Shown here: positions 13,806 to 23,949 of the stretch, piece after piece
Numbering within the stretch: position 1 is the stretch's first letter
Layout of the letters: each line of letters starts with the position of its first letter
Assembly: GCF_004114975.1 (NCBI RefSeq)
Contig: NZ_CP030051.1
Coordinates: 5,580,001 to 5,644,000, forward strand
DNA: 64,000 bases
From: Bradyrhizobium guangdongense
GTDB lineage: Bacteria > Pseudomonadota > Alphaproteobacteria > Rhizobiales > Xanthobacteraceae
Direction: 5' to 3'
Position numbers and translations under genes: made by a program
The notes under the pieces: generated by a model
What the model was told of the DNA's origin: nothing
Databases searched by the model: none
What the model saw: only the letters and a program-made list of their open reading frames with translations

Positions 13806-16511
13806 CTAGCTCGCGGCACCTGCCAGTTTGACTTCTCTTGCCGACGCAATGTCCGTCGTCGCGATCAGCCGCTTCAGCTCGGGGATGCAGGAGCCGCAAT
13901 TGGTGCCGGCCTTGAGCTTGGCGCCGATCTCGGCCGCGGTCCGCGCGCCGCCCGCGATGCTGTCGCAGATGGTGCCGCGGCCGACGCCGAAGCAGGCGCA
14001 GACGATCGGGCCGGTCGAGGCGGCGCCTTCGCCGGACTTGCCTGACAGCAGCATGCGGCGCTGCTCGTCGGTGACGTAATCGGCCGCGAACAGGCTCTTC
14101 ACCACCTCCCAGTCGCCGGCATCATGCCCGGGGCCGACGAACAGGCAGGTCTCGATGCGGTCGCCCGCGAACGAGGCCGCGCGATAGATGCCGCCGCCGA
14201 AATCGCGATACTCGGCAATGTCCTCGCCGGAGACGGAATCGAGCCAGGCTGGCCAGCGCGACAGATCCGCATTGTCGGCGAAGAGATAGCCGAAGCCGCC
14301 GGCGACAGTGGCGCGGGTCCACAACAGGTTCTGTGGCAGATCGAGCTGCTTGCGCGACAGTGCGAAGCCGCGGAAGACGAACTCGTAAGGAGCGATCGCC
14401 GCCGGCGTCGCCTTCGACTCCGGCTGGCCCGAGAACGGATCGGTGAACGGTGCTACCAGCGCGCCGACGCGGCCGTGCGAAGCATTCATCGCGCTCCAGT
14501 GGATCGGCACGAACAGCGCGCCGCGCTGCTGGCCTTCGCCGACGACGACCTTCAGGATGCACTGACCATAATCGGTGGTGATGCGGGCGTAGCCGTCATG
14601 GACGATGCCGTACTTGCCGGCGTCATCAGGGTGGATCTCGACGAAAGGTTCGGGCAGATGCGCACCCAGGCGCTGGCTCAGGCCCGTGCGTGTCATGGTG
14701 TGCCACTGGTCGCGGATGCGTCCGGTGTTGAGCCTCAGGGGCCTCGAGGGCCCTGTCTCGCCACGCAGCGCCGGCACCTCCGGCGCGACGAAGCGGCCCT
14801 TGCCGTCATTGGTGAAGAATCCGCCCTCGGCGAAGAAGCGCTCGCCTGGTGCCTCGCCTTCGCGCGCAGGCCACTGCACCGGTTTCAAGGCGTCGAAGGC
14901 GTCGTCGGACAGCGAAGTCATCGCACCGATATCGAAGTCGCGGCTGCCGTCGTTCTCGAACGCCGAGAGCGCGGCGTGCTCGCGGAAGATGTCGGCCGCG
15001 GATTTGTAGTTGAAGCTGTCGCCGAAGCCGAGGCGCTTGGCGGTCTCGCTGAGAATCCACCAGTCGGGGCGCGCCTCGCCCGGCGCCGGCAGGAACGAGC
15101 GCTGGCGCGAGATGCGGCGCTCGGAGTTGGTCACGGTGCCCGATTTCTCGCCCCAGGCCAGCGCGGGCAACAGCACATGCGGGCCGGCCTCGACCGTGTC
15201 GTTAGAGAGCACGTTCTCCGAGACCACGAACAGCTCGAGCTTCTTCAGGGCATCGCGGACCATGTCCGCGTCGGGCAGCGACACCGCGGGATTGGTGCCC
15301 ATCACCCACAGTGCCTTGACCTCGCCGCGATTGATCGCCTCGAACAGCTGCACTGCCTTCAGGCCTTCATGGGTGGCGATGCGCGGCGCCTTCCAGAACC
15401 GCCTGACACGATCGATGTCGGGCGGCGTGAAACCCATATGGGCGGCGAGCATATTGGCGAGGCCACCGACTTCGCGGCCCCCCATCGCGTTGGGCTGACC
15501 GGTCAGCGAGAACGGCGAAGCGCCCACCTTCCCGATCCGCCCCGTGGCGAGATGGCAGTTCAGGATCGCGTTGACCTTGTCGGTGCCCTGGGCCGACTGG
15601 TTGACCCCTTGCGAATAGAGCGTGACGACCTTCTCGGTGTCGCGGAACATCTTGAAGAAGATGGCGACGTCCTGCTCGGAGAGACCCGTGGCCAGCGCGG
15701 TCGCGGTGACGCTGCCGGCGATGTTGCGTGCGCGCGCCAGCGCATCGTCGAAGCCGGAGGTGTTCTGCGCGATGTAGTCGCGATCGAGCGCGCCATTGTC
15801 GGCAAGATGGACGAACAGGCCGGAGAACAGCGCGGTATCGGTGCCGGGCTTGAGGCCGAGGAACAGATCGACATCGCTTGCGGTATCGGTGCGGCGCGGA
15901 TCGATCACGATCATGCGCGCGCCGCGCTCCGCACGGTTCTTCAACATGCGCTGGAATAGAACGGGATGACACCAGGCGGCGTTCGAGCCGACGAAGACGA
16001 GCAGATCGGCCTGGTCGAGATCCTCATAGCACCCCGGTACGGTATCGGCGCCGAAGGCGCGGCGATGGCCGGCGACTGAGGACGACATGCACAGCCGCGA
16101 ATTGGTATCGACGTTGGCGGTTCCGACAAAGCCCTTCATCAGCTTGTTGGCGACGTAATAATCCTCGGTGAGGAGCTGTCCGGAGAGATAGAACGCGACC
16201 GCGTCGGCGCCGTCGCGCGCCACGATGTGCTGCATGCGGTGGGCGACATGATCGAGCGCATCGCTCCAGGCGACGCGTTCCAGCACGCCCTTGCAGCGGA
16301 TCATCGGATACAGCAGACGGCTTTCCAGCCCGACGGTCTCGCCGAGCGCGGAGCCCTTGGAGCAGAGCCGACCGAAATTGGCGGGATGATCGGGATCGCC
16401 CGCGATCGCCGCCCCACCCTTGCCGTCGGGCGTCGCCAGCACGCCGCAGCCGACGCCGCAATAGGGACAGGTCGTTCTGGTTGCGCGAAGCGTCGGATCG
16501 ATTGCCGTCAT
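13806..16511 (-). CDS. nasC: Assimilatory nitrate reductase catalytic subunit with C-terminal BFD-type [2Fe-2S] domain
   Basis: 901 residues. The N-terminal [4Fe-4S] site is read in TTCPYCGVGCGVL and GRLCSKGSALG; the molybdopterin domains follow (NTNSRLCMSSSVAGHRRAFG, FVGSNAAWCHPVLFQRM, ANMLAAHMGF). The C-terminal ~60 residues (CACFGVGRGTICD, then TNCGSCIPELKRLI) form a BFD-like [2Fe-2S] module, as in NasA/NasC of cytoplasmic assimilatory enzymes. It reduces nitrate to nitrite. AAAGG ten bases before the ATG fixes the start, 14 bases after the flp stop. It is the last gene of the narK-bjgb-flp-nasC operon. No assimilatory nitrite reductase is in the window. Confidence 0.93.
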   Translation of the reverse strand: MTAIDPTLRATRTTCPYCGVGCGVLATPDGKGGAAIAGDPDHPANFGRLCSKGSALGETVGLESRLLYPMIRCKGVLERVAWSDALDHVAHRMQHIVARDGADAVAFYLSGQLLTEDYYVANKLMKGFVGTANVDTNSRLCMSSSVAGHRRAFGADTVPGCYEDLDQADLLVFVGSNAAWCHPVLFQRMLKNRAERGARMIVIDPRRTDTASDVDLFLGLKPGTDTALFSGLFVHLADNGALDRDYIAQNTSGFDDALARARNIAGSVTATALATGLSEQDVAIFFKMFRDTEKVVTLYSQGVNQSAQGTDKVNAILNCHLATGRIGKVGASPFSLTGQPNAMGGREVGGLANMLAAHMGFTPPDIDRVRRFWKAPRIATHEGLKAVQLFEAINRGEVKALWVMGTNPAVSLPDADMVRDALKKLELFVVSENVLSNDTVEAGPHVLLPALAWGEKSGTVTNSERRISRQRSFLPAPGEARPDWWILSETAKRLGFGDSFNYKSAADIFREHAALSAFENDGSRDFDIGAMTSLSDDAFDALKPVQWPAREGEAPGERFFAEGGFFTNDGKGRFVAPEVPALRGETGPSRPLRLNTGRIRDQWHTMTRTGLSQRLGAHLPEPFVEIHPDDAGKYGIVHDGYARITTDYGQCILKVVVGEGQQRGALFVPIHWSAMNASHGRVGALVAPFTDPFSGQPESKATPAAIAPYEFVFRGFALSRKQLDLPQNLLWTRATVAGGFGYLFADNADLSRWPAWLDSVSGEDIAEYRDFGGGIYRAASFAGDRIETCLFVGPGHDAGDWEVVKSLFAADYVTDEQRRMLLSGKSGEGAASTGPIVCACFGVGRGTICDSIAGGARTAAEIGAKLKAGTNCGSCIPELKRLIATTDIASAREVKLAGAAS

Positions 16512-16525
16512 TCCAAACTGCCTTT

Positions 16526-17743
16526 TCAAGCCGCCCTGGACGGATGCGCCAGCGCGCGGCCGAACATCATGTCGGTACGGATCGCAGCCACCTTCTCGCG
16601 ATTGCGGATCAGCTCGAGATACCAGAGCGCATCGACGGTATCGCCGATCAGCACGGCCCCGGTGAGCCGGCCGTCGGCGATGACGAGCTTCTTGTAGGTG
16701 CCGCGCCTGCGATCGGTGAGAACGAGGCTCTCGCTGCCGTCGCCGCCCATGAAATCGCCGGCGGAGAACACGCTGACGCCGGACACCTTCAGGTTGGTCG
16801 AGACGATGCTGCCCTGATAGGCGGCGGGGCGGCCGGCAAGATGCCGCGCCAGCACGCGCGCCTGCTCATAGGCCGGCTCGACCAGCCCATAGCAGGTGCC
16901 GCGATGCTCGGCGCATTCGCCAATTGCGTAGATGTCGGGCGACGCCGTCTGCATCACGTCGTTGACGACGATGCCACGGTTGACGGCGATGCCGGCGTCC
17001 TTGGCAAGCGCCACGTTGGGTTTGATGCCGGCGGCGAAGATCACAGCGTCGGCCTCGATGCGGCTGCCGTCGGCGAGCTCGACGGCCTCGACATGATTGT
17101 CGCCGTGAATCCGGGCCGTCGAAGCATTGAGCAGGATCCGGATGCCCTTGCGCTCCACCAGTGTCTTGAGCAGGTCGGCGGCCGGCAGATCGAGCTGACG
17201 CTCCATCAGCCGGTCCATCAGATGCAGCAGCGTCACCGGCGCTCCGGCCTTGGCCAGCCCGTACGCCGCCTCGAGCCCGAGCAGACCGCCGCCGACCACG
17301 ACAACGCGCTTCCTGGCAGCAGCGAGCGTCAGCAGCAGGTCGACGTCGCGGCTGTCGCGAAAGGTGTGCACGCCTGCGAGATCGGCGCCCGGCAGGTTGA
17401 GCCGCAGCGGCGTCGATCCTGTGGCGAGCACGAGCTTGGAATATTCCACGCTCTCCTCGCCGTCGATCTTGAGCTCGCGGCGGCCGGTGTCGATCTCGGT
17501 GACGCGATAGCCATACCGAACCGTGACGCCGCGATGGCGCCACCAGTCCGCCGGCCGCAGCTCGATCTCGTGCGAGCCGGTCTCGCCGGCCAGCACGGAG
17601 GAGAGCAGCACTCTGTTGTAAGCGAGCCGAGGTTCATCGCCGATAACGGCAACCGCGTAGCGGCCGAGTGCGGTCTTGGCGAGTTCATCGACCAGACGCG
17701 CGGCCGCCATACCGTTACCGACGATGACGAGGGGCTCACTCAC
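16526..17743 (-). CDS. flp: FAD-dependent NAD(P)H oxidoreductase of the nitrate assimilation operon
   Basis: 405 residues starting at GTG (VSEPLVIVGNGMAAARLVDE) behind GGAG. FAD motif VIVGNGMAAARL at the N-terminus and NAD(P)H motif RVVVVGGGLLGLEAAYGLAK near residue 150; NRGIVVNDVMQTASPDIYAI and GECAEH match the second FAD segment of rubredoxin or nitrite-reductase type reductases. In the homologous Bradyrhizobium operon this protein is proposed to pass electrons to NasC and/or to the haemoglobin. The gene overlaps no neighbour; the haemoglobin stop is 11 bases upstream. Confidence 0.9.
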   Translation of the reverse strand: MSEPLVIVGNGMAAARLVDELAKTALGRYAVAVIGDEPRLAYNRVLLSSVLAGETGSHEIELRPADWWRHRGVTVRYGYRVTEIDTGRRELKIDGEESVEYSKLVLATGSTPLRLNLPGADLAGVHTFRDSRDVDLLLTLAAARKRVVVVGGGLLGLEAAYGLAKAGAPVTLLHLMDRLMERQLDLPAADLLKTLVERKGIRILLNASTARIHGDNHVEAVELADGSRIEADAVIFAAGIKPNVALAKDAGIAVNRGIVVNDVMQTASPDIYAIGECAEHRGTCYGLVEPAYEQARVLARHLAGRPAAYQGSIVSTNLKVSGVSVFSAGDFMGGDGSESLVLTDRRRGTYKKLVIADGRLTGAVLIGDTVDALWYLELIRNREKVAAIRTDMMFGRALAHPSRAA

Positions 17744-17753
17744 GAGACATCTC

Positions 17754-18182
17754 CTATTCGGCGGCCTGCGCCTGTGGGCCATAGGCCTCGGAAATCATGT
17801 AGCCGGACAGCACGCCATAGGCGTCGGTCCAGGCGGTGGCGAGTTCGGGTGTCCAGGCCTCGCCAAGGCCCTTCTCCAAGGTCCAGAGCAAGGTCGCGCC
17901 GACCACGGGATAGTGTTCGGCCTTGGCGCCGTAAGCGACGTGACGCTTGGCAAGCGCGGAGGCCGCGGGAAGAATCGTCTCGAGGTTCGACAGGCCGCTG
18001 ACCACGGCAGCGAGCATGCCCATCAGCTTCTTGCGCTGCTCGGTCATGTCCTGCGGAAACATCGCGCGCACGGACGGGGCGACCTCGAACAAGCGGTCGT
18101 AGAACAGCTGGGAGGCTGCTTCTGAAATCGGCGCGACCTTGGAAAAGCTCTGCTGCACGAGCGCGATCTGTTGAGGAGTCAT
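17754..18182 (-). CDS. bjgb: Single-domain bacterial haemoglobin
   Basis: 142 residues, all globin, with no reductase domain. Landmarks are LVQQSFSKVAPISEAASQLF, FYDRLFEVAPSVRAMFP, the proximal His in LAKRHVAYGAKAEHYPVVGA, and LLWTLEKGLGEAWTPELATA. In B. diazoefficiens the same operon position holds Bjgb, linked to nitric oxide detoxification during nitrate use. Here the flavoprotein gene begins 11 bases after its stop, so the globin and its probable reductase are made from the same message. Confidence 0.93.
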   Translation of the reverse strand: MTPQQIALVQQSFSKVAPISEAASQLFYDRLFEVAPSVRAMFPQDMTEQRKKLMGMLAAVVSGLSNLETILPAASALAKRHVAYGAKAEHYPVVGATLLWTLEKGLGEAWTPELATAWTDAYGVLSGYMISEAYGPQAQAAE

Positions 18183-18262
18183 GATGTTGTCCTGTCTGTT
18201 TCGGTCTGCCTTCGTCCGCGCCGTTGCGGAAAAGGTTCATGGGCCAAACGTCACCAGAGAGA

Positions 18263-18286
18263 CCTCTCCCCGCGTACGGGAAGAGG
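18263..18286. repeat. Strong intercistronic hairpin between narK and bjgb
   Basis: CCTCTCCCCG and CGGGAAGAGG pair over 10 bp (one G-U) around a CGTA loop. It lies in the 122-base gap between the narK stop and the bjgb start within one operon. No T-run follows, so message stability or differential expression is more likely than full termination. Confidence 0.75.
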
Positions 18287-18304
18287 CGATTTTCGTAACC
18301 TCGC

Positions 18305-19687
18305 TTACACCCGCGCTTCGGCGAGGCTTGGCGCGCCTTCACCCTGCGGGCTGCGACGCAGATAGAACCACCAGGTCATAGCGAGGCAGACGGCGTAGAA
18401 CGCGAGGAAGATGGCCAGCGCGAGCTGCGGACCGCCGGTCGCCGCGATCGACTTGCCGAAGCTGCTCGGGATCAGATAACCGCCGACGGCACCCACCGCG
18501 CCGATGAAGCCGACAGCCGCACCGCTCTCGATGCTCGCCGTCTTCAGCGCCAGCGCGCGCGCCGCGTCGCCCTTGCCGCGCACCTTGAACAGGTTTTCTT
18601 CGCGGAAGATCGAGGGGATCATGCGATAGGTCGATCCGTTGCCGATGCCCGTGGTCAGGAACAGGATCAGGAACATCGACAGGAAGCCGGTGAAATCCTT
18701 TTGCCCGACGAAGTAGAGGACGCCGATCGTGGCAGCCGCCATCGCGATGAAATTCCAGAAGGTGATGATGGACCCGCCGAGCTTGTCGGCGAGCCAGCCG
18801 CCGAAGGGTCGCGACAGCGAACCGACCAGCGGCCCGAGGAATGCGATCGAGATCGTCACCGTCGGAAACTGGGTCTTGATCAGCAGCGGAAACGCGGCGG
18901 AGTAGCCGATGAAGGAGCCGAACGTTCCGATGTAGATGAAGGCCATGATCCAGGTGTGCTTGCGCTTGACGATGGCAAGCTGGTTCTTGATCGACGCCTT
19001 CGCCGAGGTCAGGTTGTTCATGAAGAACATGGCGCCAAACACCGCGATCGCGATCGGCAATACCCACATCAGGCCGGCGTTCTGGAGATAGACGCCGCCG
19101 ACCGGCTCTGCCTGGAACAGGTTGATGACGGCGAGCGTCATCAGGATCGGCGTCAACAGTTGCACGCTCGAGACACCGATATTTCCGCCGGCGGCGTTGA
19201 GGCCGAGCGCCCACCCCTTCATCCGGTCAGGGAAGAAGAAGGAGATGTTGGTCATGCTGGAGGCGAAGTTGCCGCCGCCGAGGCCTGCGGTCGAAGCAAT
19301 CAGCAGCATCAGCCAGAACGGCGTGTCGGGCCGGCTCACGAAATAAGCGAGCGACAACGTCGGGATGAACAGAACGGCTGCGCTGAAAATGGTCCAGTTG
19401 CGGCCGCCGAACGTTGTTACAGCGAAGGTGTAGGGAAAGCGCATCAGGGCGCCGATCAATCCCGGCACCGCCACGAGTTGGAACAGTTCGTCGGTCGAGT
19501 AGTGGAAGCCCGCCTGCGGCAGCTTGGTCGCAACGATGCTCCAGATCAGCCAGACGGAGAAGCCGATGTGCTCGGCGACGATCGACCAGATCAGGTTGCG
19601 CCGGGCGACGTCCTTGCCGCCCCCATTCCAGAACGCCTCATCTTCGGGGCGCCAGTCAGAAATCCACGTCGGATTGCCTTCCTTCAT
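18305..19687 (-). CDS. narK: NarK-type nitrate/nitrite MFS transporter
   Basis: 460 residues with about 12 membrane segments. The NarK nitrate signatures are visible: STAGLGGGNFASSMTNISFF and the second motif in TTGIGNGSTYRMIPSIFREE. Conserved Arg residues in ALMRFPYTFAVT and in RMIPSIF match the substrate-binding positions of NarK. It is the first gene of narK-bjgb-flp-nasC and probably imports nitrate and exports nitrite. AAAGGGAC precedes the ATG. A structured leader and a sigma-54-like sequence lie upstream. Confidence 0.93.
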   Translation of the reverse strand: MKEGNPTWISDWRPEDEAFWNGGGKDVARRNLIWSIVAEHIGFSVWLIWSIVATKLPQAGFHYSTDELFQLVAVPGLIGALMRFPYTFAVTTFGGRNWTIFSAAVLFIPTLSLAYFVSRPDTPFWLMLLIASTAGLGGGNFASSMTNISFFFPDRMKGWALGLNAAGGNIGVSSVQLLTPILMTLAVINLFQAEPVGGVYLQNAGLMWVLPIAIAVFGAMFFMNNLTSAKASIKNQLAIVKRKHTWIMAFIYIGTFGSFIGYSAAFPLLIKTQFPTVTISIAFLGPLVGSLSRPFGGWLADKLGGSIITFWNFIAMAAATIGVLYFVGQKDFTGFLSMFLILFLTTGIGNGSTYRMIPSIFREENLFKVRGKGDAARALALKTASIESGAAVGFIGAVGAVGGYLIPSSFGKSIAATGGPQLALAIFLAFYAVCLAMTWWFYLRRSPQGEGAPSLAEARV

Positions 19688-19716
19688 TGGAAATAGTCCC
19701 TTTCGCTAGGAAGCGG

Positions 19717-19780
19717 GACACCGCCTCACGCGGAGGCGTAAAGCTGCACGCTCGGGGAAGCCCCCGTTTTCGGCGGTGTC
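19717..19780 (-). promoter_or_regulatory. narK leader with mutually exclusive stems (possible antitermination element)
   Basis: On the minus strand GACACCGCC (19772-19780) can pair with GGCGGTGTC (19717-19725), enclosing a smaller CGGGG-GCTT-CCCCG hairpin. The alternative stem CGCCTC/GAGGCG (19733-19738 with 19722-19727) uses the same GGCGG bases, so both cannot form at once. NasS-NasT antitermination in nitrate leaders is established in related bacteria; its action here is inferred. No clear T-run follows. Confidence 0.55.
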
Positions 19781-19832
19781 ACGATTTGAATGATTGCTCG
19801 GTGACGGCGTCGATGGCGTCGAAAGGCTTCAA

Positions 19833-19849
19833 TTCAAGCTCCATGCCAA
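19833..19849 (-). promoter_or_regulatory. Candidate sigma-54 promoter for narK
   Basis: On the minus strand TTGGCATGGAGCTTGAA resembles TTGGCACG-N4-TTGCW, with correct spacing but TTGAA in place of TTGCA at the -12 element. The start point would be about 19821, giving a leader of about 133 bases that contains the paired stems at 19717-19780. Confidence 0.4.
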
Positions 19850-19976
19850 ACCACGCTTCGCAGAAAATACGAACGTCCGCAGTGACTTACATCAATTGAT
19901 GAAAAAATGTTCACGCCCATAATTGCATCAAAAACTTGCTCGCCGCTCATTTCTTGAATGCCGATTCGCCTGTTGA

Positions 19977-19991
19977 TTGTGCGGCGCACAA
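19977..19991. promoter_or_regulatory. 15-bp palindrome between narK and the FNT gene
   Basis: TTGTGCG-G-CGCACAA is a perfect inverted repeat in the 687-base divergent intergenic region, 132 bp upstream of the sigma-54 element at 20123. Its location suits an activator site for either transcript. It does not match the NtrC consensus (TGCACC-N5-GGTGCA), so the protein is unknown. Apart from the listed elements the region 19688-20374 shows no convincing gene. Confidence 0.4.
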
Positions 19992-20122
19992 CTCTTGGGC
20001 AGGAGCCCGTTTTCGCGTCAGCTCGCCGCAGCGAGGGGTCAAATGCGACGTCTCGGAGGGGCTATCCGCTTCCGGCATTGGCAAATTCGGCGTCTGATAG
20101 GTGCCCGGCATGGCGCGATCGC

Positions 20123-20139
20123 TTGGCACATCCATTGCT
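20123..20139 (+). promoter_or_regulatory. Sigma-54 promoter upstream of the FNT gene
   Basis: TTGGCACATCCATTGCT matches TTGGCACG-N4-TTGCW at all but one defined position, with the required GG/GC spacing. The start point would be about 20150, leaving a leader of about 225 bases before the FNT start. Sigma-54 dependence fits NtrC-type nitrogen control. Confidence 0.75.
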
Positions 20140-20374
20140 TCCATCCTGCCTAGTCAACGATGACTGACAGTGAGCCGGAGCATCAAGCCACCGAGGCCAC
20201 TGGGAAGCCTGTTCGCTGGTCCGCCAAGGCGGTCATCGTGACGCTATCCCTTGCGCATGTCGGTGCCCCTCTTCGATCCGCGTCCACTCTCTCGGGCGCA
20301 AAGCTCACTGCCTGGCAGAGGCGTCGATCCGGCACGGGCCTGGTCGATCGTGCACATGAGCAAAGGAGCTGTTG

Positions 20375-21214
20375 ATGTCGTATCTCGCACCCTCGGAATT
20401 CGTCACCAAGATGGTGGACGCCGGCGAATCCAAGATCTTCATGTCCACCCGGGATACGGTCATCCGCGCCTACATGGCCGGCGCCATCCTGGCACTCGCG
20501 GCCTGGTTCGCCGTCACTATCAACGTCAACACCGGCCAGCCGATCATCGGCGCGCTGCTGTTTCCGGTAGGCTTCTCCATGCTCTATCTGCTGGGCTTCG
20601 ACCTGCTCACCGGCGTGTTCGTGCTCTCGCCGCTTGCGCTGATCGACAAGCGGCCGGGCGTGACGCTCGGCGGCGTGCTGCGCAACTGGGGCCTCGTCTT
20701 CGTCGGCAATTTCGGCGGCGCGCTCACCGTCGCCTTCATGATGGCGTTCGTCACGACCTTCGGCTTCACCCAGGACCCGGACAAGGTCGGGGCTGCGATC
20801 GGCAATATCGGCGAGGGCCGCACGCTGGGCTATGCGGCACATGGCGCCGCCGGCATGGCGACGCTGTTCATCCGCGGCATGCTGTGCAACTGGATGGTCT
20901 CGACCGGCGTCGTCGGCGCCATGATCTCGACCACCGTCCCCGGCAAGGTGATCGCGATGTGGATGCCGATCCTGGTGTTCTTCTACATGGTGTTCGAGCA
21001 TTCGGTCGTGAACATGTTCCTGTTCCCGTCCGGCCTGATGCTGCACGCCAGGTTCTCGATCCTCGACTATTTCATCTGGAACGAGATCCCGACCGTGCTG
21101 GGCAACCTGGTCGGCGGCCTCGCCTTCACCGGCCTCACACTCTACACGACGCACGTGTTGACCAAGCCGAAGCGGCAGCCGGCCGCCAATCCGTCGAGCC
21201 GCGCCGCGGCCTGA
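20375..21214 (+). CDS. Formate/nitrite transporter (FNT) family channel
   Basis: 279 residues with six predicted membrane helices. FNT hallmarks are GFSMLYLLGFDLLTGVFVLS, the GNFGGAL helix break, LFIRGMLCNWMVSTGV with a gating-type motif, and FEHSVVNMFLFPSGL with the central FEH-VVNM segment. Its place beside the nitrate operon suggests nitrite rather than formate. AAGGAG lies 6 bases before the ATG at 20375. It is driven from a strong sigma-54 element and ends in a strong terminator. Confidence 0.9.
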   Translation: MSYLAPSEFVTKMVDAGESKIFMSTRDTVIRAYMAGAILALAAWFAVTINVNTGQPIIGALLFPVGFSMLYLLGFDLLTGVFVLSPLALIDKRPGVTLGGVLRNWGLVFVGNFGGALTVAFMMAFVTTFGFTQDPDKVGAAIGNIGEGRTLGYAAHGAAGMATLFIRGMLCNWMVSTGVVGAMISTTVPGKVIAMWMPILVFFYMVFEHSVVNMFLFPSGLMLHARFSILDYFIWNEIPTVLGNLVGGLAFTGLTLYTTHVLTKPKRQPAANPSSRAAA

Positions 21215-21233
21215 TCGAATTGGTTTGAGCAAC

Positions 21234-21270
21234 AAGGGAGCTTTGCCTGATAAGGTAAGGCTCCCTTTCT
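21234..21270 (+). terminator. Terminator or attenuator between FNT and kinase genes
   Basis: AAGGGAGCTTTGCC and GGTAAGGCTCCCTT pair over 14 bp (two wobble pairs) around TGATAA, followed by TTTCT. The stem ends within 20 bases of the kinase start, so it may attenuate read-through into that gene. Confidence 0.85.
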
Positions 21271-21283
21271 GTTGGTGGCGAGG

Positions 21284-23017
21284 ATGGGTCGGGGCTTGCA
21301 AATCTCGATCGGGCAGCACTCCGACAAGGGGCGCAAGCCGGTCAACCAGGACTTTCACGGCGCGCTGATTCCGACGGAGCCGCTGTTGAGCCTGAAGGGA
21401 ATCGCCGTCGTCCTGGCCGACGGCATCTCGAGCAGCGCGGTGAGCCAGGAGGCGAGCGAGTCGGCGGTCAAGAGCTTCCTGACCGACTATTACTGTACTT
21501 CCGAATCCTGGACGGTGAAGCATTCGGCGCGGCGCGTGCTTGAAGCCACCAACTCGTGGCTCCATGCCGAAACGCGGCGCAGCCGGTACGCCTATGATCG
21601 CGACAAGGGCTACGTCTGCACTTTCACGGCCATGGTCATCAAGTCGACCATGGCCCACATCTTTCACGTCGGTGACTGCCGGATCTACCGCGTAGCCGGC
21701 AAGGCTCTCGAACAGCTGACCGATGACCATCGCACCATCGTCTCGTCGGAGCAGACCTATCTCGGTCGCGCGCTCGGGATCAACCCGCAGATCGAAATCG
21801 ACTACCAGGCTCTTCAGATCGAAAAGGGCGACATCTTCCTGCTGGCCACCGATGGCGCGTACGAGTTCGTCGATCAACGCTTCGTCACGGCCACACTCGA
21901 GGCCTGTGCCGGCGATCTCGACGGGGCGGCGAGGAGTATCGTCGAGGAGGCCTATCGGCGCGGCAGTGACGATAACATCACCGTCCAGATCCTGCGCATC
22001 GACGAGGTGCCACGGACTGGCTCATCGGAGATCTTTGGCAGTACCGCCGAGCTGCCGCTTCCGCCATTGCCGGAGCCCCGGGCGCTGTTCGACGGTTACC
22101 GCATCGTGCGCGAAGTGCATGCCTCTAGCCGCAGCCATATCTATCTGGCGGTCGACAGCGAGACCGACGAGATGGTCGCCCTGAAGATCCCCTCGATCGA
22201 TCTCCGCGACGAGCCCGCCTATTTGCAGCGCTTCCTGATGGAGGAGTGGATCGCGCGGCGGATCGACAGTCCGCACGTCCTGAAGCCGCGCTCGCGCTCC
22301 AAGCGGCGAAACTATCTCTACGTCGCGACCGAGTTCATCGAAGGGCAGACGCTGCGGCAATGGATGCTGGACCATCCGCGTCCCGACATCGAGACCGTGC
22401 GCGACATCGTGGACCAGATCGCGTCGGGCCTGCGCGCCTTCCATCGCATGGAGATGCTGCACCAGGATCTCAGGCCCGACAATATCCTGATCGACAAGAC
22501 CGGCACCGTGAAGATCATCGACTTTGGCGCGGTCAAGGTCGCCGGCGTGGCGGAAGCATCGCCCGATCCGGCCGACGCCGAAATCCTCGGGACGTTGCAG
22601 TACACCGCACCGGAATATTTCCTCGGCGAAGGCGGCTCCCCGCGCTCGGACATGTTTTCGCTGGCGGCCATTTGCTACCAGATGCTGACCGGAGAGTTGC
22701 CTTACGGCGCCCAGGTTGCCCGCATCAGGGGACGGTCGGACGCATGGAAGCTCCGGTATCGTCCGGCCAGCCACGACGACCGCGCCGTCCCCATCTGGAT
22801 CGACGGCGCGCTACGCAAGGCGCTGCATCCCGATCCCAACAAGCGGCACGAGGACCTGTCCGAATTCACTTACGAGCTCAGGACTCCGAATCCGGCCTAT
22901 TTCGCCACGCGGACCACGCCCCTGATCGAGCGCAATCCGCTGCTGTTCTGGAAGCTGACGACGGTGGTTCTGGCCTGCACCGTCGTCGCCTTGCTCGCCC
23001 TGCTGCATGCGCGTTAG
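21284..23017 (+). CDS. Bifunctional PP2C phosphatase - Ser/Thr kinase membrane protein
   Basis: 577 residues. Residues ~1-235 are a PP2C domain: GRKPVNQD, VLADGISS, VGDCRIYR, LATDGAYEF and RRGSDDNITVQ supply the metal-binding Asp residues. Residues ~265-540 are a protein kinase: ALKIP (Lys), HQDLRPDNILI (catalytic loop), IIDFGAVKV and LQYTAPEYF. A C-terminal anchor reads KLTTVVLACTVVALLALLHA, so the catalytic parts face the cytoplasm. Such fusions occur beside nitrate/nitrite genes in other proteobacteria, suggesting control of transport or assimilation. ATG at 21284 is chosen; a TTG at 21272 is possible but would abut the upstream hairpin. It converges on the dioxygenase gene. Confidence 0.9.
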   Translation: MGRGLQISIGQHSDKGRKPVNQDFHGALIPTEPLLSLKGIAVVLADGISSSAVSQEASESAVKSFLTDYYCTSESWTVKHSARRVLEATNSWLHAETRRSRYAYDRDKGYVCTFTAMVIKSTMAHIFHVGDCRIYRVAGKALEQLTDDHRTIVSSEQTYLGRALGINPQIEIDYQALQIEKGDIFLLATDGAYEFVDQRFVTATLEACAGDLDGAARSIVEEAYRRGSDDNITVQILRIDEVPRTGSSEIFGSTAELPLPPLPEPRALFDGYRIVREVHASSRSHIYLAVDSETDEMVALKIPSIDLRDEPAYLQRFLMEEWIARRIDSPHVLKPRSRSKRRNYLYVATEFIEGQTLRQWMLDHPRPDIETVRDIVDQIASGLRAFHRMEMLHQDLRPDNILIDKTGTVKIIDFGAVKVAGVAEASPDPADAEILGTLQYTAPEYFLGEGGSPRSDMFSLAAICYQMLTGELPYGAQVARIRGRSDAWKLRYRPASHDDRAVPIWIDGALRKALHPDPNKRHEDLSEFTYELRTPNPAYFATRTTPLIERNPLLFWKLTTVVLACTVVALLALLHAR

Positions 23018-23031
23018 CAGGGCTGGCCCGG

Positions 23032-23949
23032 TCAGGCCGGCTCTGCCGCCTTCGTCCCCAGCGGCTTGGGCGCGATGCCGCCGCCCGGCTTGAGGTGGAA
23101 TTCGTAAGTCATCAGATGCCACTTCCCGGTCGCCTTGGTGCCGTCGGGCATCTCGGCATCGGTGCGCGGCTCGACCTTGGCGATGAGGTCGTCCTTGACC
23201 CCGAACACCACGTCGGAATCGAGATATTTGTCGCCGTCCATGAAGACATGGGTGATCAGCGGCTCGTACCCCCTGGCGTTGACCAGGAAGTGCACATGCG
23301 CCGGACGCATCGGATGACGCCTGGTCTGCACGATCATCTCGCCGACGGGCCCGTCGGTCGGGATCGGATAGCTGCACGGCAGAATGGTGCGGAAGAAGAA
23401 GCGGCCATCGGCGTCGGTGATGAAGCGCGCCCGCGCCGAGGCGCCGACTTCGTCATAGTTCGCCTTCTGGGAATCGTAGAAGCCGTCGTCGTCGGCATGC
23501 CAGACGTCGATAGGAACATTGGCGAGCGGCTGGCCCTTGAGATCGGTGACGCGGCTCTGCACGAACATCCGCTCGCCAGTCAGGTTGTTCGGCGAGATGT
23601 CGGTGCCGTGGGCGGTTACCTTGTGCTCGCCGACATAGAACGGGCCCAGCACCGTGGTCTCGGTGGCGCCGTCGCGGTCGCGATGATTGACCGCGTCGAC
23701 CAGCATGGAGACGCCGAGCACGTCGGAGAGCAGGATGAACTCCTGCCTTGTATCGCTGCATTTCTGGCCGGTGCGGGTCAGGAAATCGATGGCGTATTCC
23801 CACTCCTCGAAGGTGAGACCGGTCTTGCTCACGTAATCGTGCAGCGACTTCACCAATTCCTGCAGCAGGAATTTCGCGCGGCGGTCAGGCGTGTTGTCGA
23901 AGCTTTTGACGACGGCTTCGGTAAGCTCGGTCTCGTTGAACTGGGTCAT
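23032..23949 (-). CDS. Intradiol ring-cleavage dioxygenase (hydroxyquinol/catechol 1,2-dioxygenase type)
   Basis: 305 residues. The non-haem Fe(III) ligands of this family can be placed: Tyr in HADDDGFYDSQK, Tyr in LPCSYPIPTDGPVG, and two His in RPAHVHFLVNA. The N-terminal ~100 residues form the helical dimer domain (LLQELVKSLHDYVSKTGLTF). LGPFYVGEHKVTAHGTDISP opens the catalytic domain. Length and the ILPCSYPIP segment fit hydroxyquinol 1,2-dioxygenases, but catechol or chlorocatechol cannot be excluded. No maleylacetate reductase or muconate cycloisomerase gene is adjacent. Confidence 0.87.
   Translation of the reverse strand: MTQFNETELTEAVVKSFDNTPDRRAKFLLQELVKSLHDYVSKTGLTFEEWEYAIDFLTRTGQKCSDTRQEFILLSDVLGVSMLVDAVNHRDRDGATETTVLGPFYVGEHKVTAHGTDISPNNLTGERMFVQSRVTDLKGQPLANVPIDVWHADDDGFYDSQKANYDEVGASARARFITDADGRFFFRTILPCSYPIPTDGPVGEMIVQTRRHPMRPAHVHFLVNARGYEPLITHVFMDGDKYLDSDVVFGVKDDLIAKVEPRTDAEMPDGTKATGKWHLMTYEFHLKPGGGIAPKPLGTKAAEPA

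Follow-up and report, generated by a model that had tools for sequence, protein, structure and literature searches.

A PP2C phosphatase-kinase fusion conserved beside an FNT channel gene suggests phosphorylation control of nitrogen-anion uptake

In Bradyrhizobium guangdongense, a gene that fuses a PP2C phosphatase to a Ser/Thr kinase follows a gene for a channel of the formate/nitrite transporter (FNT) family. Comparison across genomes indicates that these two genes are a conserved unit and that the divergent nitrate operon is a local neighbor. Many bacterial families keep the pairing, and from this it seems that the fusion switches the FNT channel on and off. The reading we prefer, and to which we give a probability of roughly one half, is that of an RpoN-driven module for nitrogen-anion uptake: the fusion controls the channel reversibly, and its dose is limited by a hairpin between the genes. 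The domains, conserved catalytic residues, pairing, hairpin and promoter-like site on which this reading draws are features of the sequence (Table 1); "the window" denotes the whole stretch of 64,000 nucleotides that was analyzed.

Table 1. Features of the window discussed in the text, with their positions and the evidence for them.
Feature	Position	Strand	Evidence
narK-globin-flp-nasC operon, divergent context outside the conserved pair	13806..19687	-	profile matches
sigma-54 (-24/-12) promoter-like site TGGCACATCCATTGCT	20124..20139	+	upstream of FNT, pattern match
FNT-family (formate/nitrite transporter) channel gene	20375..21214	+	PF01226; start ATG 20375
hairpin, 14-bp stem and 6-nt loop, in the FNT-kinase gap	21234..21267	+	folding, covariation
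PP2C phosphatase - Ser/Thr kinase - C-terminal transmembrane helix fusion	21284..23017	+	Pfam domains, alignment, start comparison

The fusion has 577 residues, with the PP2C domain at the N-terminus, the kinase C-terminal to it and a hydrophobic helix at the C-terminus. Numbered from an ORF that starts at a TTG, residues 44-209 match PF13672 (PP2C_2, 52.3 bits, cut-off 24) and residues 287-525 match PF00069 (Pkinase, 125 bits, cut-off 31.7). The start appears better placed at the ATG of position 21284 than at the TTG of 21272; an ATG stands at the former position in 79 of 80 relatives (the best 80 of 370). With both domains above their cut-offs and the C-terminal helix present in 106 of 111 fusion relatives, the initial annotation was right to see one membrane-anchored protein with a phosphatase and a kinase.

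Active sites were counted in an alignment of these 111 relatives, of which 68 FNT-linked fusions and 28 fusions linked to transporters of the MFS type were scored. The PP2C aspartates D23, D46, D131, D190 and D230 are kept in 68/68 and 28/28, and the catalytic Lys, Glu, Asp, Asn and DFG Asp of the kinase in 67/68 and 28/28, respectively. Because both residue sets are kept across both kinds of fusion, phosphatase and kinase activities both look to be under selection. The Pfam match and the metal/phosphate aspartates place the protein among the PP2C (PPM) phosphatases, and the Pfam match and the K/E/D/N/D set place it among the Hanks-type Ser/Thr kinases, where it departs from type in three respects: it has no Gly-rich loop (the corresponding region reads EVHASSRSHIYLA), and its catalytic loop, HQDLRP, has HQD for HRD and Arg for Lys at D+2. 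The earlier statement that all key residues are intact thus holds for the PP2C aspartates and the kinase K/E/D/N/D residues, but not for these three elements. HQD is found in 63/68 FNT-linked versus 10/28 MFS-linked fusions, and the D+2 residue is Arg in 65/68 of the former and Lys in 28/28 of the latter, so that HQD together with Arg at D+2 is typical of the FNT-linked branch. A separate fusion branch of one family (f54; L175, L176, L177, L178, L181 and L193) keeps neither residue set in any of its six members (0/6) and retains length and C-terminal helix, as a double pseudoenzyme; its neighbors include inorganic diphosphatase, PFK-like and DsbD-like genes, and genomes G050 and G260 additionally encode an active-type fusion copy.

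The FNT gene lies directly upstream of the fusion on the same strand, as first described, and its product matches PF01226 with 205.1 bits (cut-off 34.6). The initial annotation had staked its reading on a neighborhood conserved in other genomes, and such conservation is found. Among the near loci, defined as the best 80 of 370 stretches encoding a fusion relative, FNT adjoins the fusion in 80/80, with the FNT of L069 running off its contig. The closest fusion relatives listed are nearly all from Bradyrhizobium records. One record titled "Frankia sp. RB7" (L008) has a fusion 91% identical to that of the window in the Bradyrhizobium gene order, and its title is probably wrong.

The divergent nitrate operon behaves differently. 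Within the same best 80 of 370, it lies upstream in 60/60 of the close relatives L001-L060, but only 1/20 of L061-L080 shows any nitrate-operon gene there, a 44-residue NasC match. The position opposite the nitrate operon, which had been stressed for this locus, therefore holds here and among the closest relatives and is lost beyond them. Of the linked candidate substrates named at the time (FNT, NarK and NasC), FNT has proved the conserved partner, and narK and nasC are no longer kept outside L001-L060. The order narK-globin-flp-nasC is that of the B. japonicum operon for nitrate assimilation and NO detoxification controlled by NasS-NasT, as described in the part of the publication available to us (PMC4724949), in the text of which "kinase" and "FNT" occur 0 times.

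For a wider view, FNTs and fusions were searched in 397 sampled genomes of the phylum and then joined, with 125 fusion rows used. These genomes hold 67 FNTs at least 59% identical to that of the window; 58 of them lie directly upstream of a fusion in the same direction, in 24 families and with gaps of 16-618 nt between match ends, two are adjacent to but convergent with a fusion, and seven have no adjacent fusion. The channel apparently can do without the fusion, judging by these last seven of 67. None of the 32 more distant FNTs is adjacent to a fusion. Sorted by identity of the fusion, FNT is directly upstream in 44/48 at 53% or more, 8/9 at 47-52%, 5/30 at 40-46% and 1/38 below 40%.

The nearest solved relative of the window FNT is LCIA (9v2a, E 1.9e-28), which we take to be a bicarbonate/nitrite channel; entries of the NirC/FocA type come next, at 6e-13 or weaker. 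FocA, NirC and LCIA belong to the same PF01226 family, but the window FNT stays under the NCBIfam cut-offs for FocA (107.7 against 290.1 and 42.7 against 440), NirC (38 against 293) and fnt, and is neither a FocA nor a NirC equivalog by these models. FocA is controlled by a partner protein, PflB; we know of no FNT channel under phosphorylation or other covalent control. Two residues of the window FNT, T11 and T28, are candidate phosphosites: among 57 linked and 34 unlinked FNTs, Ser or Thr occupies the first position in 93% versus 12% and the second in 98% versus 18%, figures that are confounded with descent. Both residues are also present in L203, L204 and L206, which are orphan FNTs. The B. 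guangdongense genome holds two further FNTs. One, 45% identical to the window FNT, is flanked by an ANTAR gene and a nitrite/sulphite reductase gene, all on the same strand, so the reductase may obtain its nitrite independently of the window FNT. This stretch (G000:C1:4088308-4092542; L195, L198 and L201) is away from the window, and the sole cyanase gene found in the genome, at 3160117, is also outside it.

Sigma-54 promoters follow the consensus TGGC[AT]CN5TTGC[AT], and TGGCACATCCATTGCT is the only full match to it on either strand of the window. Sites with at most one mismatch precede FNT in 60/61 Bradyrhizobium loci (17 perfect, 237-271 nt from FNT) and in 17/20 of the next relatives (13 perfect, 59-361 nt). 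Among distant linked loci they are found in 10/41, none perfect, versus 7/38 unlinked FNTs, and the site is not general among FNT-fusion loci. The same search on the reverse strand, as a control, returned sites with at most one mismatch in 24/61 Bradyrhizobium loci, 2/20 next relatives, 1/41 distant linked loci and 0/38 unlinked FNTs; these matches may stem from the promoters of the divergent nitrate genes. The claim for the site rests on its constant place and on the perfect matches, and with a GG-N10-GC -24/-12 element at a conserved place we regard it as a predicted promoter.

Published expression data bear on this point. In rpoN mutants of Bradyrhizobium sp. DOA9, fnt (41483) and "prkC" (41482) are both reduced, according to the part of the paper available to us (PMC13207237). 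The promoter string printed there for both genes is found in the DOA9 locus (L025, 7007-7021), some 74 nt before FNT, which identifies DOA9 fnt and prkC as orthologous genes; the string differs from the sigma-54 site that we propose. In that part of the paper the authors discuss prkC as a cell-wall kinase, a reading against which the FNT-fusion gene order speaks for a transporter-linked role. Between the sigma-54 site and FNT, the leader also holds an inverted repeat, GTCAACGATGAC (20153-20164) and GTCATCGTGAC (20232-20242), and similar elements recur in the aligned FNT leaders of relatives; they could serve as a binding site or act as an RNA element. When the FNT leader was folded and aligned, no clear match to a two-hairpin leader of the NasT/ANTAR type emerged, and Rfam at gathering threshold gave no match in the whole window.

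The hairpin in the gap between FNT and the fusion has stem arms at 21234-21247 and 21254-21267, with two G-U pairs, and ends 16 nt before the ATG. A 96-nt region around it folds with -46.2 kcal/mol (z -4.87), which 0/200 shuffles equaled, and the hairpin next to the start region is thus as initially reported. The T-run ascribed to it is not: a terminator scan of 19500-23100 found 0 sites, and the window hairpin has the GC-rich stem of an intrinsic terminator without the T-run. At least four T among the 8 nt that follow the stem occur in 3/57 Bradyrhizobium hairpins, 7/18 in L061-L080 and 7/23 distant ones, so that classic termination fits some relatives better than it fits the window.

A hairpin of -20 kcal/mol or lower occurs in every one of the 57 Bradyrhizobium gaps (out of 61) that measure 33-250 nt, versus 11/285 shuffles. 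L061-L080 reach -20 in 17/20 gaps versus 3/100 shuffles; in L069 and L080 the hairpin is 92-130 nt from the start. In more distant families 24/40 gaps fall in the range of 33-250 nt, and 14/24 of these reach -20, versus 13/120 shuffles and versus 24/112 other codirectional gaps of the same loci, the latter defined by greedy ORF calls (Fisher p 0.0007, relatedness ignored). The remaining 16/40 distant gaps lie outside this range, several at 0-20 nt, and abutting genes leave no hairpin between them. Stem sequences differ in the farther relatives, and the place of the stem is similar. In an alignment of 40 hairpins of the Bradyrhizobium group, 95.7% of cells pair, double changes occur at 8/15 pairs, and the covariation score of 0.251 exceeds those of 500/500 shuffles and of slid versions (best 0.194), while the number of further pair types was matched by 15/500 shuffles; the 40 were picked post hoc from 81 near loci, with near copies excluded along with gaps that carry other inserts, and this choice leans towards structure. 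We take the hairpin to be a selected structure in Bradyrhizobium, and one that is frequent, not general, elsewhere. Three longer gaps (L027, L029 and L053) keep the stem and then have an inserted repeat of about 200 nt before the kinase start.

The proposal that the hairpin attenuates kinase expression is plausible, since it is conserved with compensatory changes. What tells against it is the poor T-run and the reported RpoN dependence of both DOA9 genes, which implies that transcription passes the hairpin. The same two observations, along with a stem that ends just ahead of the kinase ATG, would fit a hairpin that stabilizes the FNT message or marks its processed end, or that shields the ribosome-binding site of the kinase; we consider this a serious alternative, if one somewhat short of even odds, given that terminator-like stems with T-tracts do occur in the same gap of some relatives (e.g., L123, L134 and L135).

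In a quick tree of 97 fusions, with a midpoint root used for drawing only, the FNT-linked fusions form one clade (SH-aLRT 100) of 57 rows: 54 FNT-linked, two convergent with FNT and one without. This clade stands among fusions preceded by MFS transporters of the NarK/NasA type, one representative of which scores 350 bits against a TIGR00886 cut-off of 312. As such carriers precede the sister fusions, a transporter is the common neighbor of fusions, and we infer that the MFS pairing is older than the FNT pairing. Tentatively, and with somewhat less confidence than would make it an even bet, we extend this to the idea that reversible phosphorylation gates FNT and that the fusion serves throughout the phylum as a regulator dedicated to nitrogen-anion transporters. 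In several branches its partner would be a NarK/NasA-type carrier; a single move would have brought it to the unrelated FNT channel fold, the catalytic loop changing from Lys to Arg at D+2 with the move.

Other nitrogen genes accompany many of these loci. A cynS gene lies within 4 kb in 18/42 distant FNT-adjacent loci versus 0/28 MFS-linked loci, nirB within 8 kb in 16/42 versus 21/28, and nasC within 9 kb in 10/42 versus 16/28; NIT-ANTAR proteins are encoded near some fusions (L129, L138, L150, L152 and L153). The nirB, nasC and NIT-ANTAR neighbors would suit a fusion that targets another nitrogen protein (NirB/NirA, NasC, a NIT-ANTAR or NasT regulator, or PII) and adjoins a transporter through a shared nitrogen regulon. 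We think this rather unlikely: one or more of cynS, nirB and nasC are found near 29/42 distant FNT-linked loci, but in the other 13/42 all three are absent within the scored distances and FNT is still adjacent. The same 13 loci also tell against the reading we prefer. Plasmids speak in the same sense. Of 33 plasmid records with a match, the annotation of nine was examined, and in 8/9 an annotated FNT is directly upstream of the fusion; in the ninth, from Sulfitobacter, the fusion is at the start of the record and its upstream side lies outside. On 3/9 plasmids cynS is beside the pair (Acinetobacter haemolyticus, Psychrobacter, Sulfitobacter), and on 3/9 nirB-nirD is upstream (Ideonella, Pseudoalteromonas, Acinetobacter sp. 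NCu2D-2), but the Azospirillum, Methylobacterium and Cupriavidus plasmids carry FNT and fusion in a stretch without nitrogen-protein genes such as nirB, nasC or cynS. FNT, fusion and cynS of the A. haemolyticus plasmid (L247), near an IS element, and of Psychrobacter pA17P2 (L249) are on plasmids typed mobilizable and look like a mobile nitrogen-anion module.

Both branches share a nearly invariant juxtamembrane motif of approximately PLIERNPxxFW, which the Pfam kinase match does not cover, with W556 kept in 67/68 FNT-linked and 27/28 MFS-linked fusions. Contact with either transporter fold through this region would also fit a fusion that works as a sensor, with FNT or the anion as the input that signals through the kinase to expression or metabolism, but this we hold to be quite improbable, as the linkage of any downstream regulator is less constant than that of the transporter.

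Together, these features suggest a model in which FNT and the fusion are a dedicated two-gene module for the uptake of small nitrogen anions, nitrite and/or cyanate; the catalytic activity, substrate and topology of the fusion, the dose effect of the hairpin and the anion transported are what we infer from them. Under nitrogen limitation, sigma-54 RNA polymerase would start at the promoter at 20124 and transcribe the two genes. Partial termination or processing at the hairpin between them would lower the amount of downstream message, giving fewer copies of the regulator than of the channel. The C-terminal helix would hold the fusion at the membrane, with its catalytic domains in the cytosol, where it may reversibly phosphorylate either the channel itself or a gating partner protein. 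Acting together, the kinase and phosphatase domains would then set the open and shut states of the channel as the nitrogen supply changes.

The fusion architecture has been known in print since 2005, when a PP2C-kinase fusion of Pseudomonas (gi|9947763) with the same domain order, PP2C at the N-terminus and kinase at the C-terminus, was placed in a class called uncharacterized (Krupa and Srinivasan, 2005; PMC1262709); the part of that account available to us does not mention a transporter. NCBI names the architecture "bifunctional protein-serine/threonine kinase/phosphatase". The P. aeruginosa fusion gene PA1782 presumably lies by nasA and nirB and would then belong to the MFS-linked branch, which differs from the window fusion by its Lys at D+2. 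Kinases of the Stk1/PknB type and phosphatases of the Stp1 type have related catalytic domains (NF033483, 154.6 bits; NF033484, 103.2 bits), but the window fusion is far under the curated cut-offs of 450 and 230, joins both domains in one chain and is not a PASTA kinase, with no PASTA repeats in the Pfam search. In nitrifiers, an FNT gene adjacent to cynS has been discussed as a possible cyanate transporter, much like the relatives of the window with FNT beside cyanase; the word kinase has 0 occurrences in that paper (PMC10753782). Full-text searches of an open-access library returned no description of an FNT-kinase pairing or of a function for it. The state of the plant nitrate transporter NRT1.1 is set by the opposing action of the kinase CIPK23 and PP2C phosphatases, which is an analogy of working only, since the transporter fold is unrelated and the plant enzymes are separate proteins.

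To our knowledge, physiological substrates are known for few bacterial Ser/Thr kinases. Here, in a harmless soil bacterium, gene order ties a kinase and phosphatase in one protein to a single transporter and so points to a candidate substrate. If the model is true, nitrogen-limitation control by RpoN would be coupled to regulation of nitrite or cyanate uptake at the post-translational level.
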